Assembly (NCBI RefSeq): GCF_003946265.1
Contig: NZ_RHNO01000001.1
Coordinates: forward strand, 124,001-188,000
Length of the DNA: 64,000 nt
Origin: Levilactobacillus yonginensis
GTDB lineage: Bacteria; Bacillota; Bacilli; Lactobacillales; Lactobacillaceae
Reading direction: 5' to 3'
Shown here: positions 14,701-32,072 of the stretch, piece after piece
Numbering within the stretch: the first letter of the stretch is position 1
Layout: the number at the start of each line of letters is the position of its first letter
The notes under the pieces: model-generated
Told to the model about the DNA's origin: nothing
Database searches by the model: none
What the model saw: the letters and a program-made list of their open reading frames with translations, nothing else
Made by a program: the position numbers and the translations under genes

Positions 14701-14870
14701 CTGCGGCTGTCAGAGATTCCGCCTGCTGTGGGGAACGCCTCCGGCCTGAAAAGCGGTCCTTCGGCTCGGTTTGAAGCCTGGAAAACTACCAGTCTTCAAA
14801 CACGTCCTACGCTGTAAGCCGAGAATCGGCTAACACCGTCGACACAGCTGGCTCCACCTCTGCCCCCCCT
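14701..14870 (+). repeat. Structured dispersed element, copy A
   Basis: One of six related elements. The closing stem pairs CAGAG, GCC and GCTGTG (14710-14730) with CACAGC, GGC and CTCTG (14843-14861). Inside are a hairpin with loop AGCGGTCC, a hairpin TTTGAAG.CTGG / CCAG.CTTCAAA (14770-14800) and a hairpin AGCCGA / TCGGCT. The motif TAACACCGTCGACACAG follows the last hairpin. No ORF is supported. It fills much of the 590-bp gap after the tetR gene. Confidence 0.75.
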
Positions 14871-15088
14871 CCGGTTAAACGGGTTCTTGGAAACTAAGCT
14901 AGCTTAGATACCTGACTAAACCCCAATACGCGATCCTTTTTGTATCAGGCGTAGTGGGTGTTTCAGTGCCTTCAACTTTTAGTTCTTAATGGTAGACTGC
15001 CTTGAAACGGATGACGGCGTTGTGGCCAGCTAATTCTCTGATTATGGATGCATAAAAAAACATCGCTAGAACTTTTTTACTTTTTCAC

Positions 15089-15119
15089 TTGCCTTGAAGT
15101 ACACATGAAGGTTTAATCT
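15089..15119 (+). promoter_or_regulatory. MerR-type promoter 1 (19-bp spacer)
   Basis: TTGCCT (15089-15094), a 19-bp spacer holding CCTTGAAGTACACATGAAGG, then TAATCT (15114-15119). Long spacers with a dyad between -35 and -10 are the mark of MerR-family activation. It drives the NAD(P)-binding protein and the MerR gene itself. Confidence 0.75.
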
Positions 15120-15206
15120 AAGGTCATTCAAGTTTAAACGTTGTTTTGAAAAGCAGACCATCAGCGTGCATAAACGTTGGCGGAATCAGACGAAGGAGTC
15201 TTTGTA

Positions 15207-15860
15207 ATGCGTAAAAATGTCATGATTTTAGCAGCTAACGGCCAGATTGCCCGGTTAGTTGAAAGTCGAGTTCTAGCGGAAAAAGAATTTGCTGATGTTA
15301 CGTTGACCCTATTCTTGCGGGATACGAGCCGCCTACAAAGTTTGCAGGCCAACCCTCGCGTGACCTTAGTTGAGGGCGATATCACCGATGAAACGGCCGT
15401 TAGTGCCGCCATGGCCGGGCAAGACTTGGTCTTCGTTGCGGTGGTTGACCATGACCAACAAAACTGGTTGACCAAAAACGTGGTGGCGGCAATGCAAACG
15501 AATCATGTTTCCCGGGTGCTTTTCACCAACGTATTGGGCATCTACAATGAAGTTGGCGGTGAATTTGGTCGTTGGAATTTTGAGATGATTGGGGCTGGCA
15601 TGGCACCTGCACGGCGGTCCGACACCTTATTGGCTGGCTCAGGCTTAGACTACACGACGTTGCGGTTGCCGTGGTTGAATGACCGGGGCATCGCCTACAC
15701 GGTAACGACTAAGGATCAATCTTACAATGGGGTTTCGGGTTCTCGGGCCAGCGTGGCCGACGTGGTTTTAAGCATAATTGCCGATCCCACGCGCTACAGT
15801 CGTGATAGTATTGGGATGGCTGACCCTGCAACTGAGGGTCAAAGTCGTCCGGTTTATTAA
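15207..15860 (+). CDS. NAD(P)-binding oxidoreductase, NmrA/atypical SDR type
   Basis: A 217-residue Rossmann-fold protein. ATG 15207 follows AAGGAG with nine-base spacing; the ten extra upstream residues lack a site. The dinucleotide loop reads ILAANGQIAR near the start, and YTTLRLPWL (near residue 145) is the conserved strand of NmrA-like and NAD(P)H-binding atypical SDRs. Substrate unknown. It is the first gene of a unit with the MerR regulator 25 bp downstream, behind a MerR-type promoter, so it probably belongs to an electrophile or aldehyde stress response. Confidence 0.8.
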   Translation: MRKNVMILAANGQIARLVESRVLAEKEFADVTLTLFLRDTSRLQSLQANPRVTLVEGDITDETAVSAAMAGQDLVFVAVVDHDQQNWLTKNVVAAMQTNHVSRVLFTNVLGIYNEVGGEFGRWNFEMIGAGMAPARRSDTLLAGSGLDYTTLRLPWLNDRGIAYTVTTKDQSYNGVSGSRASVADVVLSIIADPTRYSRDSIGMADPATEGQSRPVY

Positions 15861-15885
15861 GCGAGTTTTAAGGAGTTGAATCAGG

Positions 15886-16323
15886 ATGAATATTAAAGAA
15901 GCTAGTGAAAAGACGGGGGTCTCCTCTGCAGCAATCCGGTATTATGAAAAGGAATCACTGATTCCGGCCATTGACCGAACTCCCGTTGGTAACCGGGACA
16001 TTGACGATCGCATTATTCGCCGGATTCGGTTTGTGACCCAGATGCGGAGTGCCGGGATGAGTGTTGAGAATCTACGGCGCTACATCCAACTGTTTGACGC
16101 GCAGGAGGACAACACCAAGGAACAGAAGGCGTTATTGCAGGAACAATTGGCCGTTATGGAAGAAAAGCGGGACGACCTGCAGGCGGCCATTGATCATCTG
16201 AACTACAAGCTTAATCACTTCTATGACCATATGGAAGCCACCGAAGAGGAGCTCCGAGCCTTAGAACGGGAGCATGCCGATAAAGTTGCTAAACAGACGG
16301 ATGATGACTGGGGACAATATTAA
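15886..16323 (+). CDS. MerR-family regulator (AdhR/NmlR-like), cysteine-free
   Basis: A 145-residue activator with the MerR winged helix at residues 1-70 (MNIKEASEKTGVSSAAIRYY) and a long coiled-coil dimer helix at about 78-120. It contains no Cys at all, whereas several AdhR/NmlR relatives sense aldehydes through one. It is probably autoregulated from the 15089-15119 promoter. The same operator type lies before the flavodoxin operon (17390-17420) and the zinc alcohol dehydrogenase (18963-18993), suggesting a small local regulon. ATG follows AAGGAG. Confidence 0.88.
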   Translation: MNIKEASEKTGVSSAAIRYYEKESLIPAIDRTPVGNRDIDDRIIRRIRFVTQMRSAGMSVENLRRYIQLFDAQEDNTKEQKALLQEQLAVMEEKRDDLQAAIDHLNYKLNHFYDHMEATEEELRALEREHADKVAKQTDDDWGQY

Positions 16324-16460
16324 GCTTGATTCGGCATGATTCGCTAAGATAGGCATCCGACTATGGCGTAGTACAGTTCAGGTTGTTAATCGCTCTCAAA
16401 TAAATTTGGGATTTTGTTTCAGACTTCTTCAAAGATGAAAAATTGAATAAGCCGTTATTC

Positions 16461-16498
16461 TTGTGACTCAGCTAGCAAGCGTATATACTGAGATATAC
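16461..16498 (+). promoter_or_regulatory. mazEF promoter with overlapping palindrome
   Basis: TTGTGA (16461-16466), 17 bp, TATACT (16484-16489). The palindrome GTATATACTGAGATATAC (16481-16498) covers the -10, the expected place for autorepression by MazE or the MazEF complex. Confidence 0.65.
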
Positions 16499-16519
16499 AA
16501 AATAGGGGGGGCGGCTGAA

Positions 16520-16798
16520 ATGATGAAGCCATCTGTAAATGAACACGTAATTGGTGAATTTGAAACCAGAAAAATTGGTAATTCTTTAGTCTTAACCGTG
16601 CCTAAAAAGGCTGGTATTGGCGAAAGAAAGAAGTATTTGTTGGTTAAAAAAGTCGATGGTTCATTGGAGTATCGGCCGGTGGAAAAAAATCCATGGTTGG
16701 CTGGTGAGTATGCGGATATTGACTTTGAGACCTTGAACAAAGATTTAAATGGTTTTGCTAATGGTTCATCAACCGGGCAGGAGAACATCGAATGGTAA
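16520..16798 (+). CDS. mazE: MazE/AbrB-type antitoxin
   Basis: A 92-residue antitoxin. ATG 16520 is taken because a G-rich GGGGGGGCGG site lies just upstream. The N-terminal half has the SpoVT/AbrB-like swapped-hairpin DNA-binding pattern (RKIGNSLVLTVPKKAGI). The acidic C-terminal half should wrap the toxin. It overlaps the toxin start by seven bases, so the two are translationally coupled. It is expected to repress its own promoter through the palindrome over the -10. Confidence 0.88.
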   Translation: MMKPSVNEHVIGEFETRKIGNSLVLTVPKKAGIGERKKYLLVKKVDGSLEYRPVEKNPWLAGEYADIDFETLNKDLNGFANGSSTGQENIEW

Positions 16799-17148
16799 CT
16801 TTGAAGCAAGGTGATATCATTTTTATTGATGCAGAACCACACGCTGGTCATGAAGAAGGCGGCCACAAGCCACAAGATGGAAATATTCGACGGCCACTGG
16901 TCGTTATTTCAAATGATGCTTATAATGCCCAAACTAAGATGATTGTTGGTATGCCAGTCACGTCTAAGCTACTTACTGATCGACGGATCTTTTTACCGAT
17001 TGCTGACCCAGCCAGTGGGGTTAAAGGGTCAATTATCACTTACATGATTCCTAATTATGACTATATAGCTAGGCACGCTGAGGTTGTTGGAAAAGTTACG
17101 TCGAGTGTGTTGGCGGACTTATTACAGCGCGCACATAGTATTTTTTAG
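16792..17148 (+). CDS. mazF: MazF/PemK-type endoribonuclease toxin
   Basis: A 118-residue toxin of the MazF/PemK family, which cuts mRNA at short sequences and halts growth when its antitoxin decays. Family signs are GDIIFIDAEP at the start, RRPLVVISND (conserved Arg-Pro and the following strand), VGMPVTSK and the C-terminal VVGKVTSSVL. Full length and apparently intact. ATG 16792 lies within mazE. A terminator follows 41 bp after the stop. Confidence 0.92.
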   Translation: MVTLKQGDIIFIDAEPHAGHEEGGHKPQDGNIRRPLVVISNDAYNAQTKMIVGMPVTSKLLTDRRIFLPIADPASGVKGSIITYMIPNYDYIARHAEVVGKVTSSVLADLLQRAHSIF

Positions 17149-17189
17149 ATATCATTACTATGCCAAATCTAGTTGGTATGAAACGATTT

Positions 17190-17224
17190 AAGGGTAGCTA
17201 CCTAGCGGGTGGCTGCCCTTTTTT
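17190..17224 (+). terminator. Terminator after mazEF
   Basis: AAGGGTAGCTACC pairs with GGGTGGCTGCCCTT, followed by T6. Confidence 0.85.
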
Positions 17225-17389
17225 ACGATATGGAGGTGCGCTAAACAATCATACCTGAGACCCAGAAAATTAGCCCGTGTAACTGACCAGGCAACAATTT
17301 ATTTTAAAAATTTTCAAAGTAAGGGGTGACAAATGTCGGTTGGATTTCGTTAGTAAGAGTATGGCGGTCCAATTAATTTCGAAATTTCC

Positions 17390-17420
17390 TTGCCTTCAAC
17401 CCACTCGAAGCTTGTATGCT
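17390..17420 (+). promoter_or_regulatory. MerR-type promoter 2 (19-bp spacer)
   Basis: TTGCCT (17390-17395), a 19-bp spacer with CTTC...GAAG dyad, and TATGCT (17415-17420). Same -35 and spacing as the promoters at 15089 and 18963. It lies about 20 bp before the AAAGGAG site of the flavodoxin gene. Confidence 0.7.
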
Positions 17421-17453
17421 AGAGGTAACAAGTTAGCTAAAGGAGATCTTCAT

Positions 17454-17930
17454 ATGGCAGCAGAAGTGTTAATTGTCGATTATTCGTGGTCTGGCACTAC
17501 CGCTAAAATGGCGGCGGCCTTACAGCAGGTAACGGGCGCACAACTGGTTAATTTGACAGTGGCGCCAACCACTTTTGGGTCGGATATGTACGCGACGGCC
17601 GACATTGCCAATCAACAATTGGCGAGCGGACAGCTCCCCCAGTTGACCAATTCATTGCCTGATTTGAGTCAGTTTGACAGCATTTTAGTTGGTGGACCGG
17701 TTTGGTCAGCCAAGGTCTCGACACCGGTCCGGACCTTCCTCGGGAATTTAAAAAAGTACACCGAGACAGTTGCGCCATTTTATACAGATGCGGGTACCCC
17801 GGGTGACTACGAGGCAGATTTTGCAAAGCTGCTGCCACTAGCGACGATTAAGCCGGGCATCGGCATGACAATCCAAGATCTTCAGCAGGCGGACGCACAA
17901 TTGACTGCTTGGTGGGAACGGACGCGTTAG
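17454..17930 (+). CDS. Flavodoxin-family protein
   Basis: A 158-residue flavodoxin-fold protein. ATG 17454 follows AAAGGAGATCTT; upstream extensions are rejected because the promoter lies there. The phosphate-binding loop YSWSGTTAKMA (residues 9-19) and GGPVWSAKVSTPVRTFL are typical of flavodoxin-like oxidoreductases that bind FMN and carry electrons. No signal peptide. It is followed 12 bp later by a reductase, and both sit behind a MerR-type promoter, suggesting joint action on an electrophile or in redox stress. Confidence 0.85.
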   Translation: MAAEVLIVDYSWSGTTAKMAAALQQVTGAQLVNLTVAPTTFGSDMYATADIANQQLASGQLPQLTNSLPDLSQFDSILVGGPVWSAKVSTPVRTFLGNLKKYTETVAPFYTDAGTPGDYEADFAKLLPLATIKPGIGMTIQDLQQADAQLTAWWERTR

Positions 17931-17942
17931 GAGGATTTCGAA

Positions 17943-18956
17943 ATGAATAAAGACGATAAAATTACAATTTTAGGAGTGACCGGCTATACCGGCGCTTGGC
18001 TAGCCAAAACATTAAGCGACGCTGGGTACACCAACATTACGGGAACCTACCGCGATGCGCAAAAGATGGCAACTTTGACGAAATTACTACCTAACATTCA
18101 CGGCGTTCAGGCCGATTTATTAGCGTCCCCGGATCAGGTAGTGATCGCTCTGACCGATGCTCAGTGGGTGTTTAATAATTCGGCACCCTTCACGGGCCAG
18201 GAACGGACGACGGCTGACTTTGTCCGCACCAAGGTCACGGCAATCGATAACTTATTTAAGGGATTGGCCCGGGCCCAGACCGCTCAAAAATTAATTCAAA
18301 TGGGGTCGGTGGCAGCAATCGATATGGGTATTGCGGATACCAGCGTGACCACCATCGACGAGGACACCTGGCCGGATTTAGCCCACATGGATGCAGCCTA
18401 CGAACCGTTCGTCAATATGAAGGTGCGGGAGGAACAGCGCGTGCGCGAGTTAGCCGGTATTATGGGGTTAGCGGTAACCGTCGTTCATCCCACTAACATT
18501 GTGGGTCCCAGCTATACACCATGGCAACATGATATGATCTACGCATACCTGCACGGCAGTCAACCGTTAGTGGATGGTCCCATGGACAGCGTGGACGTTC
18601 GGGATATTGCCGGCCTTGAGTTGGCATTGATGATTAATCCAGCGAGCGATGGTAAACGTGTCATGGGACTGGGGTTCACGAGCACCTATGGCGAGTTGGA
18701 AGCGATCGTTCGAGCGACGCTGTCCGAAGACAAAATTACGCAATTGTTCGGGACGTTGCCAACTCTTATTTCAGCGCAGACGGCCCTGGCCCTCTGGCAG
18801 CCAATTGCCTACACGTCCTTTTATCAGGATCAGGCCTGGCGCTTGAATCCGCAATCAGTCTTGCAAACGAAGTACCCAGCGTTCTATCACTATCAATATA
18901 CGGACGCTCAGGTGACGTTTAAACAAGCGCTCCAGAAAATGTTGGCCGATGCGTAA
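17943..18956 (+). CDS. NAD(P)-dependent epimerase/aldehyde-reductase-like extended SDR
   Basis: A 337-residue extended SDR of the dihydroflavonol/aldehyde reductase type. The nucleotide loop GVTGYTGAWLAKTL opens the protein, and NSAPFTG and VTVVHPTNIVGP are family strands. Odd point: where these enzymes have the catalytic YxxxK, this protein seems to read FVNMK, with a Tyr five positions earlier (YEPFVNMK). Either the Tyr is shifted or it is replaced by Phe, so activity is uncertain. GGAGG precedes the ATG, and it forms an operon with the flavodoxin gene. Confidence 0.82.
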   Translation: MNKDDKITILGVTGYTGAWLAKTLSDAGYTNITGTYRDAQKMATLTKLLPNIHGVQADLLASPDQVVIALTDAQWVFNNSAPFTGQERTTADFVRTKVTAIDNLFKGLARAQTAQKLIQMGSVAAIDMGIADTSVTTIDEDTWPDLAHMDAAYEPFVNMKVREEQRVRELAGIMGLAVTVVHPTNIVGPSYTPWQHDMIYAYLHGSQPLVDGPMDSVDVRDIAGLELALMINPASDGKRVMGLGFTSTYGELEAIVRATLSEDKITQLFGTLPTLISAQTALALWQPIAYTSFYQDQAWRLNPQSVLQTKYPAFYHYQYTDAQVTFKQALQKMLADA

Positions 18957-18962
18957 AAGCGC

Positions 18963-18993
18963 TTGCCTTGAAGTGAACTTTAAGGTTTAAGCT
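18963..18993 (+). promoter_or_regulatory. MerR-type promoter 3 with clear dyad
   Basis: TTGCCT (18963-18968), a 19-bp spacer, and TAAGCT (18988-18993). CCTTGAAGTGAACTTTAAGG (18967-18986) is a near-perfect palindrome, the best operator of the three. It lies only seven bases after the preceding stop codon. Confidence 0.8.
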
Positions 18994-19026
18994 GAGTTTA
19001 CCAGTTAGAAATTGGAGGATGAATTT

Positions 19027-20070
19027 ATGAAAACAGCAGTATTCGTTGAACCGGGTAAAGTTGAAGCCCAAGAGTTGCCTAAGCCAGAGGTGAAAAATCC
19101 GACCGACGCCGTGTTGAAAATTGTGCGCGCGTGTGTCTGTGGGTCCGATTTGTGGTGGTACCGGGGCATCAATGATCGTCAAAAGAATACGCCGGTGGGT
19201 CACGAAGCTATCGGTATCGTTGAGAGCGTAGGGGCTGATGTCACCAATGTGCGACCTGGTGACTTTGTGATTGCGCCATTCACCCATGGATGTGGTCACT
19301 GTGCAGCTTGTCTGGCGGGCTTCGACGGTAACTGTGAGAACGCGCGGACCGACGATGAGATTGTTGGTTACCAAGGAGAATACTTACGTTTCAAGAACGC
19401 TGACTGGGCCTTGGTCAAGGTTCCTGGCCAACCAAGTGACTACTCCGACGCACAATTGAATGACCTGTTGACGTTGGCTGACGTGATGGCCACGGGTTAC
19501 CACGCCGCTGCCACCGCTGAAGTTAAAGCTGGCGATACGGTCGTGGTTATGGGCGACGGTGCCGTGGGCTTGTGCGGCGTGATTGCTGCGAAGCTGCGCG
19601 GGGCTAAGCGTATTATTGCCATGAGTCGGCACGCTGATCGTCAGGCGCTGGCACAGGAATTTGGCGCGACCGATATCGTCGCTGAACGGGGTGACGAGGC
19701 CGTTCAACGGGTCATGGCACTGACCGATGGCGCTGGTGCCGACGCTGTGTTGGAGTGTGTTGGGACGGCACAATCCGTTGATACGGCCGTAAAAGTTGGC
19801 CGAGCGGGGGCCGTGGTTGGCCGCGTTGGTGTGCCCCAAAAGGCTGAAATGAACACCAACAATCTATTTTGGAAGAACATTGGTCTGCGTGGGGGTATTG
19901 CTTCCGTGACGACGTATGACCGGGCCGTACTGTTGGATGCCGTCTTAAAAGGTGAAATTCATCCGGGCAAGGTCTTCACGAAGCGCTTTGACCTCGACCA
20001 CGTGGCTGAAGCTTATGCTGCAATGGATAAGCGTGAAGCCATCAAGTCATTATTGGTGATTGGTGACTAA
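19027..20070 (+). CDS. Zinc-dependent alcohol dehydrogenase (MDR)
   Basis: A 347-residue medium-chain dehydrogenase. ATG 19027 follows TTGGAGGATG. The catalytic zinc site is CVCGSD with GHE, and the structural zinc knuckle is CGHCAACLAGFDGNC. The Rossmann loop GDGAVGLCG lies near residue 180. It oxidises or reduces an alcohol/aldehyde with NAD(P). The third MerR-type promoter directly in front makes an aldehyde or quinone detoxification role likely, as in AdhR-controlled adhA of Bacillus. A terminator follows. Confidence 0.9.
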   Translation: MKTAVFVEPGKVEAQELPKPEVKNPTDAVLKIVRACVCGSDLWWYRGINDRQKNTPVGHEAIGIVESVGADVTNVRPGDFVIAPFTHGCGHCAACLAGFDGNCENARTDDEIVGYQGEYLRFKNADWALVKVPGQPSDYSDAQLNDLLTLADVMATGYHAAATAEVKAGDTVVVMGDGAVGLCGVIAAKLRGAKRIIAMSRHADRQALAQEFGATDIVAERGDEAVQRVMALTDGAGADAVLECVGTAQSVDTAVKVGRAGAVVGRVGVPQKAEMNTNNLFWKNIGLRGGIASVTTYDRAVLLDAVLKGEIHPGKVFTKRFDLDHVAEAYAAMDKREAIKSLLVIGD

Positions 20071-20166
20071 TTACGCGAACATGTTGGCATGTAAGTGATA
20101 GGTTCATAATGATAAATCGCAGTAATTAATAATTGAATTATTAAAAAATACAGTTCGACAGAGAGT

Positions 20167-20215
20167 GCCCTATGATTGTTTTGACAGCTAAGTCTAGCAA
20201 TTGTAGGGCTTTTTT
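20167..20215 (+). terminator. Terminator after the zinc alcohol dehydrogenase
   Basis: GCCCTATGATTG pairs with CAATTGTAGGGC, with the T6 run immediately after. Confidence 0.75.
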
Positions 20216-20266
20216 GAACTAGTTATTCTGATTTTCAGTGTTCAGTTAGTATTTGGATAGCCAACC

Positions 20267-20857
20267 CTAGAGCTTAAACGTCCGCAAAACTTGTTGTCGT
20301 TGGGCCAACGACTTTTTCTCAACTTGAGCGAAGTTGTGCCACTTAAAGTGCCAGAGCCGCGTTTTCAGGAAAGTTCCTCGGAACAAGAGCTTGGCGAGTG
20401 GTGCCCCAAACAGCAGGCGGTAGGCCCAATTGGGGGTGCTCATGGTCGTGATAATGTCGACCTGGGGTTGCTTGGTCAGTTTAGTCTGCATGTTATCGGC
20501 TTGATAGAGCTGGCCTTTGGCATAGACCTTGTCGAGAAAGCCCTTAGTCATGGCTGGCATGACTTCCCACCAGACGGGGAACATGAAGATGATGCGGTCG
20601 GCGGCGAGCAAGCGTTGCTGGTAATCGGCAACTTGGGGGTCGATTGGTTGCCCCCGCCGCCAGTTACTCAGGTCGTCCGCGGACATCACGGGATTAAAGC
20701 CGTCCGCGTGTAGGTCGATGAGATCGATGGCGTTATTTTCCTGATGAAGTTGGGCAGTAACTTGTTTGAGGAGAGCTGCTAAAAAGGAACGGTGGTGTGG
20801 CACGTTGTCGCCAGCGGTGGCGGTGTATGGGTGATCAAAGATAATGACAGTTTTCAT
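20267..20857 (-). CDS. NAD(P)H:quinone oxidoreductase (flavodoxin-like fold)
   Basis: A 196-residue flavoprotein of the NQO1/KefF/MdaB family (PF02525 type). The start is ATG 20857 (MKTVIIFDHPY) with a CGAGG site; the 22 upstream residues are dropped. IFMFPVWWEVMPAMTKGFLD is the family's flavin and quinone loop. It probably reduces quinones or nitro compounds by two electrons. It is divergent from a Crp/Fnr-type regulator 100 bp away, which likely controls it. Confidence 0.85.
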   Translation of the reverse strand: MKTVIIFDHPYTATAGDNVPHHRSFLAALLKQVTAQLHQENNAIDLIDLHADGFNPVMSADDLSNWRRGQPIDPQVADYQQRLLAADRIIFMFPVWWEVMPAMTKGFLDKVYAKGQLYQADNMQTKLTKQPQVDIITTMSTPNWAYRLLFGAPLAKLLFRGTFLKTRLWHFKWHNFAQVEKKSLAQRQQVLRTFKL

Positions 20858-20957
20858 AGTTAAGACCTCGTTTTTAATGAATAAAGAGAGTATAAATGAG
20901 GGGGAGCCCCGCGGCATTAACATTTGTTAATTGCGCAGATTGAAGGAGGAGACTGTG

Positions 20958-21527
20958 ATGGAAATACCCACATATTTAGCCCAAAAATTACCAGAAATTG
21001 GTGAACACTGGTCAGAACTTCACGACCTGTTCATCTCTAAATCAATCCCGGCAGACACGACATTGCTGGCGGAGGGGGACGTTGCCACCGAACTCTTTAT
21101 TGTGACGAACGGGGCCCTGCGTCTCTGGCACAACAGCGATGGGCGGGACATCACTCTGCAATTTTTCTTTGAAAATCAGGTCGTTTCGTCCTTTGAAAGC
21201 TTTTATCTAGATCAACCCAGTGGTTTTTCCATTGAGAGCTTTGAAGATACGCAGGTGTTAATTCTGCCGAAGACGGCGTTTGATCGGATTCGGCAGCGCT
21301 ATCCTACGATTGAACCGGCCATTACGCGGTTTATTTGCGAGCGGTTCATCGCCTACCGCAACATTTTTTTTGACCAAATACAGCACTCACCTGAGGAACG
21401 TTATCAGCAACTAGTTAACGATGAGCCGGAGATTCTGGAGCGCGTCCCTCTGCGGTTGGTGGCGTCGTACCTGGGGATGACGCCGGTGTCACTGAGTCGG
21501 ATTCGTACGCGGTTAAAGGAAAAGTGA
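20958..21527 (+). CDS. Crp/Fnr-family regulator
   Basis: A 189-residue regulator with an N-terminal cyclic-nucleotide-binding-like beta-roll (residues about 25-115) and a C-terminal helix-turn-helix (LVASYLGMTPVSLSRIRTRL). ATG 20958 follows GAAGGAGG. There is no Cys cluster for an iron-sulfur centre. It is divergent from the quinone reductase, a common pairing, so I infer local control. Ligand unknown. Confidence 0.85.
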   Translation: MEIPTYLAQKLPEIGEHWSELHDLFISKSIPADTTLLAEGDVATELFIVTNGALRLWHNSDGRDITLQFFFENQVVSSFESFYLDQPSGFSIESFEDTQVLILPKTAFDRIRQRYPTIEPAITRFICERFIAYRNIFFDQIQHSPEERYQQLVNDEPEILERVPLRLVASYLGMTPVSLSRIRTRLKEK

Positions 21528-21610
21528 TGTAATGAGTTCATTTTGGGTACCTTATTAGGAATAATCAATAACGTGGCTTAAGTGCACAACGATTATGATT
21601 AACTAAAAAT

Positions 21611-21658
21611 AGCAATCAACCCACGGATTCAGTATGCAGAATCTGTGGGTTGGTTGCT
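21611..21658. terminator. Bidirectional terminator between crp/fnr and yoeB
   Basis: CAACCCACGGATTC pairs with GAATCTGTGGGTTG; flanking AGCAA and TTGCT extend the stem. It lies between convergent genes. Confidence 0.75.
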
Positions 21659-21661
21659 GTT

Positions 21662-21919
21662 TTAATAATGGTCTCGGACTGAGAAGATATAGAGGGTATC
21701 CCCTGAAACTTGATAAATTAAGTGATGCTCACTGGTAATTCGGCGAGACCTTTTACCAGTCAACTCGAATTTGAGAGGTTCGGGTTTTCCAATTCCCGAA
21801 AAAGGATGACGATCAACGTCTTTGATTACACGATTTATCCGTTTTATCATCGCCTTATTTCCCGTATCATGCCAATACATATAATCTGCCCAGGCATCAT
21901 CAGACCAAGTTTTATTCAT
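21662..21919 (-). CDS. yoeB: YoeB-type mRNA interferase toxin
   Basis: An 85-residue toxin of the RelE/YoeB family, which cuts mRNA on the ribosome. It starts MNKTWSDDAW and ends SVRDHY, close to the usual YoeB ending with the catalytic His-Tyr. The conserved Glu lies in PLKFEL and the Arg in RSRRITSEHH. Length is exact for the family. It overlaps the antitoxin gene by eight bases, as usual for yefM-yoeB. Confidence 0.93.
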   Translation of the reverse strand: MNKTWSDDAWADYMYWHDTGNKAMIKRINRVIKDVDRHPFSGIGKPEPLKFELTGKRSRRITSEHHLIYQVSGDTLYIFSVRDHY

Positions 21920-22181
21920 GATCAGTTTCCTCGATTAAAGGATGGCTTTCAAACTTTCCGGCTGAAAACTGCTGGTTGCCGCGCTTGATTTTTTCCATAA
22001 GATAAGAATTGGCAGTTATTTTTGCGGTTTCAATGAGCGAATCGTATTCTTCGACGGATAATACAACAACATCATCTTTAGAATCCTTGGTAGTCACGAT
22101 CAAAGGTTCTGAATCGTCATTAACACTTTTTAGATGAGACTTTAAATTTTGTCGAAAATTTGAGTAATTAACAGCTTGCAA
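21912..22181 (-). CDS. yefM: YefM/Phd-type antitoxin
   Basis: An 89-residue antitoxin. TTG 22181 (MQAVNYSNFRQNLKSHLKSV) is chosen because AGGAGGGATAAAC lies directly upstream. The YefM/Phd DNA-binding fold spans about residues 1-55, including DDVVVLSVEEYDSL, and the acidic C-terminus neutralises YoeB. It is expected to repress its own promoter with YoeB as co-repressor. Confidence 0.9.
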   Translation of the reverse strand: MQAVNYSNFRQNLKSHLKSVNDDSEPLIVTTKDSKDDVVVLSVEEYDSLIETAKITANSYLMEKIKRGNQQFSAGKFESHPLIEETDHE

Positions 22182-22198
22182 GTTTATCCCTCCTCTTA

Positions 22199-22204
22199 TG
22201 TACA
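22199..22204. promoter_or_regulatory. TGTACA core, possible YefM operator
   Basis: TGTACA lies 18 bp upstream of the yefM start. The known YefM operators of E. coli contain a TGTACA core. A six-base match is weak by itself, but the position fits. Confidence 0.4.
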
Positions 22205-25519: not shown

Positions 25520-25559
25520 TGATAGATTCCTCCAGTTCATAATTAACTTTACGAGACAT

Positions 25560-25624
25560 ACTATAAATGGTGGCTAATTCTATAGTCAAATGTGGCACCT
25601 ATTATAAATTTATTTTATAATAGG
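25560..25624 (-). promoter_or_regulatory. mleS promoter and MleR-type palindrome
   Basis: Minus-strand TTGACT (25589-25584), 18-bp spacer, TATAGT (25565-25560). Next to it a 27-bp palindrome at 25598-25624 has arms CCTATTATAA and TTATAATAGG. It sits between the divergent mleS and mleR genes and is the best candidate for a LysR-type operator. Confidence 0.6.
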
Positions 25625-25655
25625 TAGATAAATGCTGAGTTGAAGGTGATTTTAA

Positions 25656-26540
25656 ATGAATACGAAGGACCTAGCCTATTTTAATCGGCTGATTCAAGAA
25701 AAAAACTTTTCGAAGGTGGCGCTGGATTTTGGCGTGACCCAACCAACAGTCACGATGGCTATCAAGCGGTTAGAGACGGCATTCAAAACGAAACTCGTAG
25801 TGCGTGACCGCGTACACAATAAATTAGACGTGACCGCCAGCGGGCAACAGCTAGCGGTTCACGCAGCCACAATTCTGGGGGAGCTAGACATTGCCCACCA
25901 AGAATTGGCCCACTTGGCGCAAGAACAAACGGTGCTGGGGTTACCACCAATTATTGAAAACTATTACTTTCCGAAGGTGGCGGCTCGGTTACAGGCACAG
26001 GGGATGCTCGAGAATATTCGGACACTAGAGGGCGGCTCAGTTTGGTTGCGCAACGCGTTAAAGGATGGTCAGGCGGATCTGGCCTTGCTGGGTTCTGCGG
26101 AACCGTTAGCCTATCAAACACTCTTGGCCGAGGAGTTTGACCGGCAACCGTTTAACATCTTTGTGTCGGTACATCACCCGCTGGCCAATCGCAAACGCAT
26201 CTACTTTAGTGAGTTAAAACAAGAAAAATTTGTCCTGTTCACCAGTAGTTTTGTTCACAACACGGCGTTTAATAAGTTAACGCGACGCAATCATTTCCGG
26301 CCGGACGTCGTGTTCCGCGCCAGCGATACGCACGTCATTATGAATCTGGTAGCGGAAAATGTCGGCGTTACTTTTCTAACCGATATCGTTGACCAACACC
26401 GCGATGACGTGGTGCGGTTGGAGTTGTTGGACGACGAACAGCCCGAGTTTATCACCAGTATCGTCTCGCGGACCTCCCACGTGTTAACGCCAGCCCAGGA
26501 AACGGTGCTGCGGATTATGCGGGAGACCTTGGAGGAATAG
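25656..26540 (+). CDS. mleR: LysR-family regulator of the malolactic genes
   Basis: A 294-residue LysR-type activator with an N-terminal winged helix (NFSKVALDFGVTQPTVTMAI, residues 17-36) and a substrate-binding domain of the periplasmic-binding-protein type from about residue 90. It is divergent from mleS across a 136-bp region with a strong palindrome, the standard MleR arrangement, so malate-dependent activation is inferred. Start ATG 25656; the upstream GAAGGTG site is modest. Length is typical. Confidence 0.9.
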   Translation: MNTKDLAYFNRLIQEKNFSKVALDFGVTQPTVTMAIKRLETAFKTKLVVRDRVHNKLDVTASGQQLAVHAATILGELDIAHQELAHLAQEQTVLGLPPIIENYYFPKVAARLQAQGMLENIRTLEGGSVWLRNALKDGQADLALLGSAEPLAYQTLLAEEFDRQPFNIFVSVHHPLANRKRIYFSELKQEKFVLFTSSFVHNTAFNKLTRRNHFRPDVVFRASDTHVIMNLVAENVGVTFLTDIVDQHRDDVVRLELLDDEQPEFITSIVSRTSHVLTPAQETVLRIMRETLEE

Positions 26541-26594
26541 ATAGGGTCGAGGGGAGCCTTAAGTGAAATTAACATGTTAGGTTCAATAACTAGC

Positions 26595-26627
26595 AAAGCC
26601 CCTGAGAATTATCTTCTCGGGGGCTTT
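26595..26627. terminator. Terminator between mleR and the convergent tetR gene
   Basis: AAAGCCCCTGAGAA pairs with TTCTCGGGGGCTTT around a five-base loop. Confidence 0.85.
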
Positions 26628-26641
26628 TACAATGGTATTTA

Positions 26642-27184
26642 TTAAATTCCTGGTGCAATTAAAGACCAAAGTCGTTCAAACCGGTCGGTATAATCGTCAT
26701 CAAACCAGACTTCTTTAAAATTGGGCAAGGCAAAGACGGCAAAGGCTGACAGAATGGCATTGGATTGTTCGTGGTGGGGGTCGTGGTAACCCATGATGGT
26801 GTCGATCTGGTTAGCAGCTTCCTGTAGAACTTGTTTGAGGGCCCGGGGGTCGTTGTCAATATAGGTCGTGTTGAGGGCAAACATGCTGGGGTTTTGCCGG
26901 TAGGCGTTTCGCTTGGCGTTGGCGAAGCCCCACAGCCAGTCGTGGAGCTGTTGTTGCCGGCTGGCAGTCTGGGAGACTGAAATTTTTGCAATGATATTTT
27001 GATGAAACCAGTCCTGGGCGACAGCCTGCCAGAGACCCTGCTTATCGTCAAAGTAGCGGTAAATGGTGGCATGAGTGATGTCTAAACTGTCTGCCACTTG
27101 AGTGAGAGAGACGGTCGCTGAATGCGTCTGGGTAATTAGTAGGCTAGCCGCGTCAATAATGGCTTCTCGAGTCGTTTTCGTCAT
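26642..27184 (-). CDS. TetR-family regulator
   Basis: A 180-residue repressor. The N-terminal helix-turn-helix reads VSLTQVADSLDITHATIYRY (residues about 25-44), followed by a Trp-rich helical ligand domain. GGAGCC precedes ATG 27184. It is divergent from a quinone-oxidoreductase-like gene 141 bp away, with AT-rich DNA between them, so it probably represses that gene and itself. Ligand unknown. Confidence 0.85.
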   Translation of the reverse strand: MTKTTREAIIDAASLLITQTHSATVSLTQVADSLDITHATIYRYFDDKQGLWQAVAQDWFHQNIIAKISVSQTASRQQQLHDWLWGFANAKRNAYRQNPSMFALNTTYIDNDPRALKQVLQEAANQIDTIMGYHDPHHEQSNAILSAFAVFALPNFKEVWFDDDYTDRFERLWSLIAPGI

Positions 27185-27325
27185 GAGTCAGGGCTCCTTA
27201 TCTGTTTTTCTGTAGTGTAACATGAAATGGCTAAAAGTAACAATAATTGAATTTTGTAATTTATCTGGTATACTAGCTTTAATAAATGACAGACAAAAAA
27301 ACGTTACTTTGAAGGAGACTGACCA

Positions 27326-28330
27326 ATGAAAGCTGCCCAATTAACCACCTATGCGAAAGATTTTCAGCTGACCGTCACCACGTTACCCGTTCCAGAAATT
27401 GCTGCCGGTGAGGTGCTAGTCAAAGTGAAGGCTGCCGCCGTTAACCCCTTGGATCAGTTGATTGGTTCAGGAAGCTTACGGGTGTTGTACGGGTATGCCC
27501 GTCCCGTAACGATGGGCAACGAGATTGCTGGGACAGTTGAGCGGTTAGGTTCAGCCGTGACCGATTTTCAGGTTGGAGATGCGGTCTACGCCCGGTTGGT
27601 GATTGCTAAGCTAGGTGGCTTCGCTGAGTACGTGGCGGTTCCTGCGCGTGCATTGGCGGCGATGCCCGGTGGTTTGAGCTTTGATCAGGCCGTGGCAGTG
27701 CCACTGACTGGATTAACGGCGTATCAAGCACTGCACGAAAAGCTGAATTTAGCTGTTGGTGCGACTGTCTTTATCCCTGGTGGTTCGGGGTCCTTTGGTC
27801 AATTGGCGATTCCGTTAGCTAAGGCGGCGGGGTTAAAAGTCATCGTTAGTGGCAATGCCCGCTCCAAGCAGGCCTGCCTAGACTTAGGTGCCGACCGTTA
27901 CTTGGATTATCGTGAGGAAGATTACTGGGAAGTCTTACACGATGTGGATGCGGTGATTGATACGTTGGGGGCGCAAGAAATCCCTCACGAATTGGCCATC
28001 CTGAAGCGTGGCGGTCAATTGCTTTCATTGAAGGCGGGACCAAACAAATTATTTGGCCAAACGGGCGGTTTCCGTTGGTGGCAACGGGTGCTCGTTTCAC
28101 TGGCCGGCTTGAAGATGGACCGGATGGCCCAGAAACAGGGCGTTACGTATCAATTTCTCTTTGTACGGCCGGATGGTCAACAGCTAGAGACTGTGACCAA
28201 GCTAGTTGAACAACTTAACATCGTTCCAGCCGTGGACAGTCAGGTGTACGGGTTGGACGATGTGAATGCTGCGGTTCAGGCAATGAGAACCGGTAAGCAC
28301 CGCGGGAAAGTCATTTTGCGGCTCGATTAG
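27326..28330 (+). CDS. NADP-dependent quinone oxidoreductase-like MDR protein
   Basis: A 334-residue medium-chain dehydrogenase of the zinc-free quinone reductase type. AAVNPLDQLIGSG, MGNEIAGTVERLG and VPLTGLTAYQAL are family blocks, and the nucleotide loop is IPGGSGSFGQLAIPLA (residues about 150-165). The usual zinc ligands are absent. It probably reduces quinones or enals with NADPH. GAAGGAG precedes the ATG. Divergent from a TetR regulator, a common detoxification pairing. Confidence 0.88.
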   Translation: MKAAQLTTYAKDFQLTVTTLPVPEIAAGEVLVKVKAAAVNPLDQLIGSGSLRVLYGYARPVTMGNEIAGTVERLGSAVTDFQVGDAVYARLVIAKLGGFAEYVAVPARALAAMPGGLSFDQAVAVPLTGLTAYQALHEKLNLAVGATVFIPGGSGSFGQLAIPLAKAAGLKVIVSGNARSKQACLDLGADRYLDYREEDYWEVLHDVDAVIDTLGAQEIPHELAILKRGGQLLSLKAGPNKLFGQTGGFRWWQRVLVSLAGLKMDRMAQKQGVTYQFLFVRPDGQQLETVTKLVEQLNIVPAVDSQVYGLDDVNAAVQAMRTGKHRGKVILRLD

Positions 28331-28426
28331 GTTTTACGGAAATCCATAATTTTGGTATGCTAGCAGAAGTCGTTTTAAAATTTTAGCCTCACCCATGTTG
28401 CGAGGTTTGAAGGAAAGTGAACCGCT

Positions 28427-29044
28427 GTGCTAGCCATGTATTTACGGGGCTTACTCTTAAGTATTGCCCTGGTGTCGTCTATCGGCATGCAAAATTTATT
28501 TCTGTTTAACAATGCCATTAATCAAAAATTATCGCGCGCGTGGCCGGTGACTATCATGATCTGGATTGCCGACACAGCACTGACGCTGGCGGCTTTCTTC
28601 GGGATGGGGGCCATCATTAGCTCCCATGAACTATTTAAATTAATTATCATGTTCTTGGGTGGTGTGTTAGTTATCTGGATTGGGTTTGGTATCTTGCGGT
28701 CGGCTGCGAGTTTCAAACTAGAGAGTGCTAATACGCCGTTACCCATGAAAAAGTCGTTGGTGAACGCTTGGGTCGTTACCTGGGCCAATCCCCAGGCGCT
28801 GATCGATACCAGCTTGATGTTTGGGGCCTTACGGGGGTCGCTGACTGATAGCCAGGTGACGCCATTTATTACGGGAGTTATTTCCGCGACCGGTATCTGG
28901 TTCTTTGGCATCACGCTGTTACTAGGACTGCTCAAGGAACGGTTGCCGCAGAAATTCTTGTTGTGGGTGAACATTCTGTCGGGGGTCGTCGTGATGGGCT
29001 ACGGCTGTTATCTGTTGTGGCAGGCGGTTATGATGGTTATCTAA
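28427..29044 (+). CDS. LysE/ArgO-family amino-acid exporter
   Basis: A 205-residue protein with six hydrophobic segments of the LysE family, which exports basic amino acids or related compounds. Typical blocks are SIGMQNLFLFNNAI at the N-terminus and WANPQALIDTSLMFGA in the middle. GTG 28427 follows AAGGAAAG; an in-frame ATG at 28436 is an alternative. The substrate is not defined. It ends before a strong terminator. Confidence 0.87.
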   Translation: MLAMYLRGLLLSIALVSSIGMQNLFLFNNAINQKLSRAWPVTIMIWIADTALTLAAFFGMGAIISSHELFKLIIMFLGGVLVIWIGFGILRSAASFKLESANTPLPMKKSLVNAWVVTWANPQALIDTSLMFGALRGSLTDSQVTPFITGVISATGIWFFGITLLLGLLKERLPQKFLLWVNILSGVVVMGYGCYLLWQAVMMVI

Positions 29045-29104
29045 TTTAAAAGCAAGTTTTGCATTTTAGGTGATTGATATTAGGCTAAACGAGTCTAAAT
29101 ACAA

Positions 29105-29148
29105 AAAGAAGTGGTGGTCGTGGATATTTCCATGGCCGCCACTTCTTT
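29105..29148. terminator. Bidirectional terminator
   Basis: AAAGAAGTGGTGGTCGTGG pairs with CCATGGCCGCCACTTCTTT. It separates convergent lysE-type and LURP-one genes. Confidence 0.85.
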
Positions 29149-29163
29149 TGTTGGTTCACCAAC

Positions 29164-29664
29164 TTAGTTACTGCCACCACTACTAGCGGCGGCAGCCGCC
29201 ATTCGCTTGACGTAGTCGATGGCAATGACTAGGCCCACGAGTAAAAGTTCCTGGTCATCGTCGATGATGGTGATTTCATACTTGTCGCCAACACTGAACC
29301 AACGTTTGGTCACGCGACCCACGACGGTGCCTTGCCGGGATACGTCAAAATTCATATCCCAAAAGTCACCGGTAACGGTGAGACCAGCGGCCGTCAGCTC
29401 ATAGCGCGGCTTCAGTAGCGTCAGACTTTTTTGAATAGTTGCTACCTGCTGGCCGCCAATTTCCAAGAAAAATTTGGGTAGCCAACTAAGTGGTTTCTTG
29501 GTAACACTGGCTACGACACGTTCGTTACGGTCGAGAATGTCAAAGTGTTTGGGAATTTGAAAGACGCTGCCGACGACTTGGTACACGGGTTGCTCACGTT
29601 CGTTGAGGACTGAAAACTTTTCTCGTAGCGAGAAGACTCGTTGATTTAAGTACAGTTTGTGCAT
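29164..29664 (-). CDS. LURP-one-related (YxjI-type) family protein
   Basis: A 166-residue protein of the LOR family, a Tubby-like beta-barrel found in plants and bacteria, possibly binding phosphoinositides or other lipids; bacterial roles are unclear. The start MHKLYLNQRVFSLREKFSVL and the repeated strand pattern (FDILDRNERVVASVTKK, FDVSRQGTVVGRVTKRW) fit the family well. A Ser/Gly-rich tail ends it. GGAGG precedes the ATG. Probably cytoplasmic; a single-gene transcript. Confidence 0.8.
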   Translation of the reverse strand: MHKLYLNQRVFSLREKFSVLNEREQPVYQVVGSVFQIPKHFDILDRNERVVASVTKKPLSWLPKFFLEIGGQQVATIQKSLTLLKPRYELTAAGLTVTGDFWDMNFDVSRQGTVVGRVTKRWFSVGDKYEITIIDDDQELLLVGLVIAIDYVKRMAAAAASSGGSN

Positions 29665-29765
29665 GGGTATTACCTCCAGGGTTCATGGGATTGGGTAGTT
29701 GTTAAGTGACATAAATAGGCAGTCCGGCATCGCTGTTGGCGACACATGACTGCCTAACTGAAGTC

Positions 29766-30461
29766 TTATTTTTCACGTGGTCGAAAGGGAATGACGTTAT
29801 CTTTGCGTTGTCCCTGTTGCATTTCAGCGAAGACTTCATTGATAAATCGGTCGAACTCTTCCTGTGAATCAGGAGCGTCTAAGTCGAGATCGTCAAATTC
29901 ACTGGTTTTATAGATTTGATGAGACTTAGCGTATTGGACGATTTGATCCAATGCCGTCTGATTGGTTTGATAGGCGTAGAGAATGTGGGTGAGTTCAAGA
30001 TCATCAATGTACTCTTGCAGACTGTCCGCATTCACGTCATTTTTAACTGATTTGAACTCGTCGTTGGGGACCAGCGAAATGTTGCGGTTGACCAGGGTGA
30101 GGTAGGTGACCTCGCCCACGCTCTCAACTTCTCGCAAGTCGGCTAGCTTGATGACGAGGGTGTTGCGCTGGTCGCTCGCAATATTTTTCACCATTAGTTT
30201 GACGGTGGCTGACGGTTTCAGCAGGTGGGGCCCCTGGTCCTCATCACTGTGGGCATCAACGTCGGCTAGTGTCATTTTTAAAAAGGCAGCTCGGTCTGCT
30301 CGCGATAGGTGCAGTTTCTCCTGCATCGTTTGGATGACCAAGGCCAGGATGGCGCTGTAGGCTTCGGGGTCGGCGTAGGTGTCGGCTGCCGGCGTGACGT
30401 CGAGCCAGGCCCCGTCGTCGTCATCTAGGCCAGCTTGAAACAATAGGCGATCGTTCTTCAT
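29766..30461 (-). CDS. Hypothetical 231-residue acidic protein
   Basis: Not recognised. A cytoplasmic-looking, acidic protein with no membrane segment or Cys. It starts MKNDRLLFQAGLDDDDGAWL and ends with a basic FRPREK tail. The middle (VKLMVKNIASDQRNTLVIKL) is strand-rich, and the C-terminal third is helical with many Asp/Glu. GGGAGG precedes the ATG, and its coding quality looks normal. It is flanked by LURP-one and CadD genes on the same strand, but with gaps over 100 bp, so no firm operon. Confidence 0.7.
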   Translation of the reverse strand: MKNDRLLFQAGLDDDDGAWLDVTPAADTYADPEAYSAILALVIQTMQEKLHLSRADRAAFLKMTLADVDAHSDEDQGPHLLKPSATVKLMVKNIASDQRNTLVIKLADLREVESVGEVTYLTLVNRNISLVPNDEFKSVKNDVNADSLQEYIDDLELTHILYAYQTNQTALDQIVQYAKSHQIYKTSEFDDLDLDAPDSQEEFDRFINEVFAEMQQGQRKDNVIPFRPREK

Positions 30462-30557
30462 GATTTCCCTCCCAAATGAGTACTCGTGGCCTCATTATAC
30501 CGTTAAGGGGCGCAAGTTCATAGGTGAAAATGTAATCGCTGTCAGATATTTTTCGAG

Positions 30558-30573
30558 TGTTTCACATGAAACA
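30558..30573. promoter_or_regulatory. parS-like 16-mer, second copy
   Basis: TGTTTCACATGAAACA is the exact reverse complement of the site at 1611-1626 and one base from the parS consensus. It abuts the stop codon of the cadD-like gene. Confidence 0.5.
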
Positions 30574-31158
30574 TTAAAGGAGAATTGCCAAGCCGACAAT
30601 GATAAATAGAATCGGTGAGAGCCAGGCGCCGAAACGGGCAAAGAAATAGCTAGCTGGTGCCGATTTGGCTAGGTAATAGCTGATGGTCAACCAGCCACCA
30701 ATCATGACTAGAAAGATTAGACTGACTGCCCCAAATGCTGGCAAGGTGAGCTTACTAAAGTAGGGGATGTAGATGCTGAGATTGTCCCCGCCGTTGCCGA
30801 CGGTCAATGACCAGACGATGGGTAGGCTGACGGCACGGGTCAACAGGGACTTTAGCCCGCCGGTGTCACGGTGTCGTAGCCAATTTCGGAGGCCCATGGT
30901 TCCCAGTAGTAGGGGAATCAGCCCTAACCAGCGCGTCCAGTGAACCACGTTAAAATGTACGACCCCGCGACTGATGACCCAGGCTACCAGCATGAGGGTG
31001 ATGATGCCTAGGTACTGGCCAATGATTACGGAGCGGCGTTGTTGGGGCGTCTTGGCGGCTAGCCAGAGTAATAGGAGTACGATTAAGTCATCGGTGTCTG
31101 TGACGAAGAAAATTCCGATGGCGGTGAAGATAAACGATAGTGACATGCGCCAATCCAT
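30574..31158 (-). CDS. CadD-family cadmium/quaternary-ammonium resistance transporter
   Basis: A 194-residue membrane protein with about five to six hydrophobic segments. TDTDDLIVLLLLW near residue 20 and VGNGGDNLSIYIPYF near residue 120 are the family's signature Asp/Asn motifs. CadD proteins export Cd2+ and possibly other cations. The start MDWRMSLSF follows AAGGATGG. No accessory regulator (CadX/CadC) is nearby, so the real substrate is open. Confidence 0.85.
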   Translation of the reverse strand: MDWRMSLSFIFTAIGIFFVTDTDDLIVLLLLWLAAKTPQQRRSVIIGQYLGIITLMLVAWVISRGVVHFNVVHWTRWLGLIPLLLGTMGLRNWLRHRDTGGLKSLLTRAVSLPIVWSLTVGNGGDNLSIYIPYFSKLTLPAFGAVSLIFLVMIGGWLTISYYLAKSAPASYFFARFGAWLSPILFIIVGLAILL

Positions 31159-31216
31159 CCTTCTCTAGAGGGTATGTTCTATCATACACTAATTATTAGT
31201 GTCGTGGATGAGAACT

Positions 31217-31410
31217 GGCCGCCTCCGGCCGCCAGGGAGGGTGCCCGCTGTGGGGACTGCCTCCGGCCTGAGGAGCGGTCCTCCGGCGCGACTTGAAACC
31301 ACGCAAAACCCGCGTGTTTTCAAGCTCGTCCCGTGGCCTAGACTCGGTCAGCCCACCGAGTTAACGCCACCGACACAGCAGGCCCCCTCCCTGGCGACCT
31401 CCGGCTACGG
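31217..31410 (+). repeat. Structured dispersed element, copy B1
   Basis: Closing stem GCCAGGGAGGG...GCTGTG with CACAGC...CCCTCCCTGGC. Hairpins inside: GCC.GAGGA / TCCTC.GGC around loop GCGG; CTTGAAAC.ACGC / GCGT.GTTTTCAAG; ACTCGGT / ACCGAGT with loop CAGCCC. TAACGCCACCGACACAG follows. A near-identical copy starts 285 bp later. It contains no credible gene. Confidence 0.85.
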
Positions 31411-31500
31411 TGGAGAGAGAAGATTCTGCCGGTGGGTTGTGTACGATGGAAAAGAGAAAGTATGTTGTCTGGTAGAAGATAATTCAGACGGATAATTTGT

Positions 31501-31697
31501 TGGCCGCCTCTAGTAGCCAGGGAGGGTGCTAGCTGTGGGGACTGCCTCCGGCCTGAGGAGCGGTCCTCAGGCGCGACTTGAAACCACGCAAAACCCGCGT
31601 GTTTCCAAGCTCGTCCCGTGGTCTAGACTCGGACAGCCCACCGAGTTAACGCCACCGACACAGCAGGCCCCCTCCCTGGCGACTTTCGGCTACGGTG
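31501..31697 (+). repeat. Structured dispersed element, copy B2
   Basis: Close tandem relative of copy B1 (period 285 bp). Differences keep pairing: the first hairpin is GCCTGAGGA / TCCTCAGGC, now perfect where B1 has one mismatch. The closing stem, second hairpin and third hairpin are as in B1 with a few base changes. Confidence 0.85.
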
Positions 31698-31927
31698 GTG
31701 GGCGAGTTTCTGCTGGTGGTTTGTGTACAAGTAGATAGACTGAAGCTTTGATATGGAATTGTCGTTAATCTGGTAGGGAATGAGAGACTCATATTGGCTT
31801 TACTTCCGCTTGTTAGAAACGAAAATGTGGTCCAGATGTTTTAGAGATAAGTCGGAGACTGAGAAAATTTGAAATTTCTCACGAAGACTGAGAAGCTTGT
31901 GGCCGAGATGGTCAATCTAAGCCGGAG

Positions 31928-32072
31928 GCGGACGGGGGTGGGGCAGCTGTGAGAATTGTGTTGGCACACAATGGGCGACTTTTAAGACACGGGGGGTTCG
32001 TGGCTTAAAATCGAGCGAGAAGCCCGTTTCTCAGGCTGAAGCGTCCCCACAGCAGGCCCCACCCCCGTTCGC
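31928..32072 (+). repeat. Structured dispersed element, copy D
   Basis: A diverged copy. Closing stem GACGGGGGTGGGGC...GCTGTG / CACAGC...GGCCCCACCCCCGTT. The first hairpin is TTGTGT / ACACAA, the second TTTTAAG.CAC / GTG.CTTAAAA, the third GAGAA / TTCTC with GCCC in the loop. The stem sequences differ from B1/B2 almost completely but stay paired. Confidence 0.75.

Follow-up and report, generated by a model that had tools for sequence, protein, structure and literature searches.

Paired, cloverleaf-like intergenic arms at gene ends in Levilactobacillus: a large structured repeat family with one transposon-borne subfamily

Why should six intergenic elements with differing sequences share one cloverleaf-like fold within a single stretch of a bacterial chromosome? 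The stretch in question, hereafter the window, comprises 64,000 nucleotides of a Levilactobacillus genome (positions 124001-188000 of contig C1, in an assembly of 2,693,691 bases and 63 contigs), and the nearest named genome that we found is L. tongjiangensis 218-10, whose malic-enzyme protein is 99% identical. The original prediction for this DNA described a family of six structured copies. All six exist and are homologous, but they belong to a far larger family of at least 150 such elements, or arms, in this genome, and the size of the family, its paired architecture and the orientation of the sixth copy had been missed. Here, we show that the arms share a fold and a pairing rule, that they mostly lie near gene 3' ends, that they are constrained in place in the orthologues sampled, and that one subfamily sits in the context of a miniature inverted-repeat transposable element (MITE).

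In window coordinates, the six copies are S-type arms at 14694-14879 (copy 1, + strand, 155 bits), 23339-23522 (copy 2, + strand, 126 bits), 23690-23876 (copy 3, - strand, 140 bits), 31216-31409 (copy 4, + strand, 201 bits), 31501-31694 (copy 5, + strand, 199 bits) and 31917-32084 (copy 6, - strand, 108 bits), as scored by a covariance model built from 45 copies, all of one genome; these bit scores are not independent, since all six copies are among the 45 training rows. Copy 4 is a 94% identical tandem duplicate of copy 5. Copies 2/3 and 5/6 form tail-to-tail inverted pairs, matching a genome-wide rule described below, and are separated by gaps of 167 bp (23523-23689) and 222 bp (31695-31916), respectively. 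Copy 6 had been taken as direct, but the covariance model puts it on the - strand with a shortened third hairpin, and its end, GTCCCCACAGC, is the complement of GCTGTGGGGAC at the start of the other copies. Because copy 6 is inverted, the supposed variants TTGTGT/ACACAA of the first hairpin and GAGAA/TTCTC of the third came from comparing non-homologous hairpins. The motif CGACACAG, described as conserved throughout, is present in five of the six copies (counting the variant CGACACTG in copy 3) and absent from copy 6.

The proposed layout of a closing stem (GCTGTG/CACAGC) and three hairpins is found in the copies, but it omitted an extra helix around the first two hairpins. Each arm is ~190 nt long and, in + orientation, starts near TGGCCGCCTCCGG and ends near CCTCCGGCTAC. 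The long closing stem P1, which has GCTGTG/CACAGC at its inner end, encloses helix P2 (GGGAC/GTCCC) surrounding hairpins H1 and H2, then H3, then a three-base linker, so that the fold is fully nested and has two three-way junctions, with 68 pairs in 6 helices. Across the 45 copies, 52 of the 68 base pairs show two-sided changes, 89.5% of pairing cells are compatible with pairing (76.5% after shuffling), and the covariation score is 0.357, compared with 0.131 +/- 0.005 for shuffles, none of which reached it (0/500). Controls with slid partners scored 0.037-0.090, a comparison that favours the structure, as it was drawn by hand on one copy. Almost all covariation is located in P1 and the three hairpins, P2 having two-sided changes in one of five pairs. 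Folding of copy 5 gave z = -6.5 on the + strand and -5.0 on the - strand (200 dinucleotide shuffles each). That the shape is preserved through changes of sequence suggests a role for the copies, one that has yet to be described. Selection on structure, as the original prediction held, is strongly supported by this covariation score together with in-place compensatory changes between sister species.

The earlier statement that the elements fit no named RNA class also stands. Rfam 15 at gathering score has no family over the copies, its one match in the window being a TPP riboswitch (47123-47220, + strand, 59 bits), and a permissive Rfam search (E up to 5) of 14400-32400 returned five matches, none overlapping the copies. 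A tRNA or tmRNA gene was rejected, as ARAGORN found 0 genes in the window. In its own genome the family numbers at least 150 copies at E <= 0.01 (112-202 bits; the best 150 of 1032 first-look candidates), which is a lower bound because at least two window copies fall outside that list; blastn with copy 4 gave 42 matches. At 190 nt each, these sites make up about 1% of the 2.69 Mb chromosome, without an Rfam match. A genus-wide search with a covariance model, proposed alongside the original prediction, yielded matches in 33 of 35 Levilactobacillus genomes including this one (E <= 1e-4), 23 of them with at least 70 matches (best 73 scored per genome) and one with nine. In a sample of the bacterial family, searched with stricter filters and with the best 10 candidates per genome scored, matches (E <= 1e-6) turned up in 60 of 251 genomes, representing 10 of the 40 genera sampled. 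A published description was not found in the literature searched, which included few subscription journals and is hence weak evidence, nor does the family appear in the available parts of PMC2267715, PMC12306157, PMC3733652 and PMC3446304.

The arms are arranged in a characteristic way. Among 152 listed arms (the 150 best genome matches plus two further window arms), neighbours less than 1.5 kb apart were oriented (+,-) 26 times, (-,-) three times, (+,+) twice and (-,+) never. When weaker arms were included, 99 of 119 had an opposite-facing partner within 600 bp, and adjacent arms were (+,-) in 46 cases, (-,+) in one and of the same orientation in eight. This set of 119 is what remained of 222 hits after curation by hand, which took out self-hits on the reverse strand, repeats of places covered by two loci, and two of the three hits cut at locus ends (the third, at L027, stayed). 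Loci of other Levilactobacillus and Lactiplantibacillus species, leaving out reverse self-hits and L031, gave (+,-) ten times, (++) once and (-,+) never, and on the main contig of genome G031 (2.99 Mb, a near-complete chromosome with 141 arms) all 18 pairs were (+,-). We noticed that the first 310 kb of this contig (G031:C1:1-310000) hold one of its 141 arms, compared with 9-26 in every other bin; possibly, the arms avoid one region. Of the 46 own-genome pairs, 45 have gaps of 65-375 bp and the remaining one a gap of 528 bp; about 25 bp at the gap side of the arm are weakly conserved. The partner arm in the aligned G031 units, as in subfamily B, belongs to a second, weaker-scoring type, 'W', which by reading has the same general layout and a different closing stem. 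Similarity within pairs (0.634; 27 pairs) is not above that between pairs (0.637), so that a single giant hairpin joining both arms is not what is kept. At one locus (L154), an open reading frame (ORF) of 126 codons lies between two far-spaced arms.

Gene context was derived from automatic ORFs of at least 100 codons, 89 of the 152 arms having enough flank. The gene on the arm's 5' side points its 3' end at the arm in 59 of 87 cases, with a stop codon often 0-30 bp away, and 32 of 86 arms are preceded by a T-run of at least five within 60 bp (controls: 2/79 at 300-360 bp and 3/86 in the first 60 bp after the arm). Flanking genes were convergent for 34, codirectional for 42 and divergent for six of 82 arms (the two arms of a pair being counted apart); for the 45 intergenic stretches in the window that are 60 bp or longer, the corresponding counts are 10, 28 and 7. 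According to a home-made scanning rule, a terminator-like + strand hairpin precedes the arm in 24 of 86 cases, ending 3-36 bp upstream (7/86 for the other strand), and one follows within 350 bp in 25 of 86 (other strand, 23). Within the window, a terminator-like hairpin with a T-run at 32094-32128 (- strand; read from the sequence and unscored), after the GtrA-domain gene at 32147-32656, ends ~10 bp from copy 6.

Are individual copies maintained where they are? Between this genome and L. tongjiangensis, orthologous arms diverge by 5.6% (30 arms), a value biased low because the regions were chosen by high model score, whereas gap divergence ranges from 17.8% over the first 50 bp to 25.1% at 101-200 bp, and the largely coding 5' flank diverges by 9.6-11.9%; from an initial 31 arm pairs, L175:625 with L202:636 was excluded as non-orthologous, the two arms being 51.7% identical. 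Nine arms sampled merely as partners or via malic-enzyme loci had a mean identity of 92.6%, still above the gaps. Two-sided Watson-Crick exchanges between orthologues numbered 17, whereas 500 shuffles of the pairing partners gave 0.69 on average and never more than 3, indicating that the fold was maintained at individual loci after the species split. Gene conversion between copies could mimic some of these double changes. Overall, individual copies look constrained where they are located. The nearest paralogue of an arm is at a median identity of 81%, and at least 95% is reached in 4 of 121 rows, the top rows being copies of subfamily B; there is thus no sign of recent spread of the arms of group A in this genome.

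Occupancy of the sites differs between species. Going by ORF coordinates, about 600 bp separate the transporter and malic-enzyme genes here; L. tongjiangensis has 442 bp at this site, and eleven other aligned loci have 151-236 bp and no arms. Between the Cad-type and GtrA-type genes, about 990 bp are present here, 807 in L. tongjiangensis and 71-132 in nine other aligned loci, with 97-1472 bp in eight further, unaligned loci. At the copy-2 site of L. tongjiangensis (L031, about 12007-12013), the interior is lost and the closing stem remains as a palindrome or bare hairpin. Arms on the malic-enzyme side in copy 2 orientation were also observed in species far from L. tongjiangensis, namely L. 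enshiensis (L045, 11880-12046), Lactiplantibacillus songbeiensis (L056, 11877-12037) and L. dongliensis (L058, 11976-12131), the latter two about 60 bp from the transporter gene. Either repeated hits at one site or old occupancy would account for these three, which speak against simple lineage specificity.

Subfamily B is a MITE with terminal inverted repeats and target duplication. Copy 1 lies within an internally deleted, 364-bp member (14619-14982, + strand) with the left terminal inverted repeat CTAAAGGTTGAAAG, its near complement at the right end, and an imperfect flanking duplication (7/9, offset 2) that overlaps the stop codon of a TetR-type gene. The ends CTAAAGGTTGAAAG and complement occur in 6 of 11 subfamily B copies, with units of 353-595 bp. 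In six units, the flanking 9-mers (offsets <=3) matched at 9/9 twice, 8/9 once, 7/9 twice and 4/9 once; different units compared at offset 0, a stricter setting than that allowed to a unit's own flanks, matched at a mean of 2.8 and a maximum of 5 (n = 30). The genome holds 36 occurrences of the end motif and one of its reversed pattern. Copies of subfamily B are fairly alike, at 84-94% identity over the main aligned pieces, and contain no fitting ORF of transposase size. By eye, no autonomous partner with B ends was noticed in five genomes (G019 has 3 matches), and a 1-3 kb transposon with these ends was rejected, the end spacings noticed in the five genomes being roughly 250-600 bp. The original prediction had offered a functional RNA or a mobile hairpin as alternatives; one subfamily is indeed mobile in character, but the two options are not mutually exclusive, and the A copies examined look old, constrained in place and without clear transposition marks. 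Shared 6-mers within 30 bp of the outer ends were found in 4 of 19 A units, with a possible abutting duplication at C15 alone. A shared interior of the A units was likewise rejected; the gaps and flanks of different units had 11 short matches (31-106 bp), which we took for partner arms or remnants. Mobilisation as a repetitive extragenic palindrome (REP) by a Y1/RAYT transposase was dismissed on co-occurrence, as Y1 does not track the arms: Y1_Tnp is present in 23 of 35 genomes, 11 of the 12 genomes without it hold at least 37 scored arms, and G012 (5 matches) and G025 (1) have Y1_Tnp and no arms.

These observations bear directly on the strongest alternative, a purely selfish MITE whose arms are needed solely for transposition, with no host role, and whose insertion prefers gene 3' ends. 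The inverted ends, target duplications and fair uniformity of subfamily B agree with it, as does the patchy occupancy of sites between species. Yet constraint and co-variation in place after a species split are unexpected from transposition selection alone, the gaps of A copies are not common to units, the 19 A units are without clear duplication, and neither an autonomous partner nor a long-spaced end pair was noticed in the five genomes. We consider a wholly selfish element unlikely.

We tentatively prefer, with somewhat less than even confidence, a MITE-seeded gene-end module that resembles REPs and bacterial interspersed mosaic elements (BIMEs), has very large folded arms, and is retained because the arms work there. 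Such a module would consist of two ~190-nt folded arms, tail to tail and intergenic, seeded by a non-autonomous transposon mostly at gene 3' ends, and the A copies would descend from B-like MITEs. An arm might be transcribed as the 3' extension of a neighbouring gene or as antisense from the gap, and its GC-rich cloverleaf could then block 3'-to-5' decay as well as read-through into the next gene, the inverted pair supplying one arm per flanking side. A protein likely binds the conserved motifs. In this way the arms might work as REP/BIME elements of unusual size and form double-sided boundaries at gene ends. That they act on transcripts is what we infer. A bolder extension, in which the arms would be folded domains of a class not seen before, served by a partner protein of their own and present in hundreds of chromosomal copies, spread by a transposon and adopted by the host as genome-wide two-sided gene-end insulators, appears rather unlikely to us.

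Several observations weigh against a host-retained gene-end module. First, the strand signals conflict. Unpaired positions on the + strand are A-rich (A and C 32% each, G 16%, T 20%), as would be expected of an RNA on that strand, which is also the sense strand for an upstream gene whose 3' end faces the arm. Yet A.C mispairs exceed G.T mispairs on the + strand (109 vs 39 in the 45 copies, mainly in P1; 343 vs 143 in 150 rows with duplicates and reverse self-hits retained), one-sided changes between orthologues show the same direction (A.C 51 vs G.T 30), and among the first 60 of 97 arms the complement has the lower folding energy in 58, or in 42 once shuffles are subtracted. Second, the arms are not uniformly within 3' untranslated regions (UTRs): a gene 5' end is found on the arm's 5' side in 28 of 87 arms, and a terminator stands before the arm alone in 20 of 86, in the gap alone in 21, in both in 4 and in neither in 41. 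Third, the unit is dispensable, as 11 aligned relatives do without it at the transporter/malic-enzyme site and nine at the Cad/GtrA site, and 2 of the 35 genus genomes are without any arm. Furthermore, most of the orthologues compared come from G028 regions selected for their high-scoring arms. Finally, among the bcr repeats of Bacillus, the sections available of PMC3446304 report a decay-rate correlation for bcr3 alone.

The conflicting strand signals are what one would expect if both strands matter, that is, if the arms are DNA-level elements, either extruded cruciforms or binding sites, as folded or double-stranded DNA, for a nucleoid, gyrase or replication factor, with pairs marking domain borders. 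Blastn of one arm returned 0 matches in plasmids and 0 in phages, which fits this view, although each search used a single 192-base query that diverged copies would escape; a pattern search of viral contigs also gave 0 matches. Cruciforms do not usually contain two three-way junctions with conserved loops, and some strand bias is present; we regard this possibility as doubtful, a little more so than the insulator extension above. Improbable, and the weakest of the alternatives, is a gap with divergent promoters from which two small RNAs arise, the arms being read outward on the complement strand: the wobble bias (A.C over G.T on the + strand), the lower folding energy of the complement and the weakly conserved 25 bp at the gap side would suit it, but that 25-bp stretch is not promoter-like by inspection (no scoring), the loops would be A-poor, and the gaps diverge fastest.

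Besides the arms, the window contains an isolated near-perfect hairpin (21604-21665, stem about 27 bp) downstream of a cNMP-binding-domain gene, and an unrelated ~137-bp repeat at 48342-48478 and 58284-58420 (74% identical), the second copy of which has, over 58290-58412, 28-bp inverted ends starting TGAAGAGTGAGACAGCAGGC. The segment 43022-43691 is duplicated at 49922-50419 with 94% identity, a small gene included, the second copy being internally shortened. A Y1 (IS200-type) transposase is encoded at 45196-45615 (- strand; G000:C1:169208-169573), and the 438-codon ORF beside it (45649-46965, + strand) may, at a guess, be a TnpB-like companion.

Whether repeated extragenic structures are functional for their hosts is a long-open question for REP and BIME elements. 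With arms that hold on to their fold at each site as the neighbouring sequence diverges, the family offers many natural replicates for testing this, and since its hosts include culturable fermenting bacteria, a direct test is possible.

How do the arms compare with known systems? According to the parts available of PMC3733652, the REP and BIME elements of enterobacteria and the GTAG- or CGTC-tagged REPs are, like the arms, extragenic, present in high copy, folded, arranged as inverted dimers and mostly downstream of genes; among the roles reported for REP/BIME elements are mRNA stabilisation, attenuation and gyrase binding (available parts of PMC2267715 and PMC3733652). The BIME architecture of inverted pairs in extragenic 3' regions is found in the arms. 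A possible counterpart of the tag of GTAG REPs is GTAG on the complement at the gap-side end, carried by 30 of 45 arms. In contrast, a REP has one stem of 5-13 bp (PMC3733652, same parts), whereas an arm has ~190 nt and two three-way junctions, and the RAYT-kind Y1 transposase with which REPs are associated does not track the arms by co-occurrence. As both the single short stem and the transposase co-occurrence failed, we do not file the arms under GTAG REPs, which they may at most resemble in the way they work; the word Firmicutes has 0 hits in the text of PMC3733652 that was available. A second likeness is to bcr1-bcr18 of the Bacillus cereus group, which are intergenic repeats, some with conserved secondary structure and some MITE-like. 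The available sections of PMC3446304 give 155-165 copies per strain for all 18 families together, of which 84/165 and 62/155 (40-51%) lie within mRNA in two Bacillus cereus strains, and they leave a tail-to-tail pair rule unmentioned, bcr repeats and arms being compared here by description and not by sequence. Subfamily B resembles MITEs in general in its size (353-595 bp), its inverted ends and its target duplications, which reach 9 bp, and differs from them in the conserved folded arms of its interior, while the A members examined are without such ends or clear duplications, yet are constrained. It is the combination of a REP/BIME-like architecture with a presumed bcr-like MITE origin and partial UTR transcription that leads us to propose a MITE-seeded, host-retained, two-sided module.

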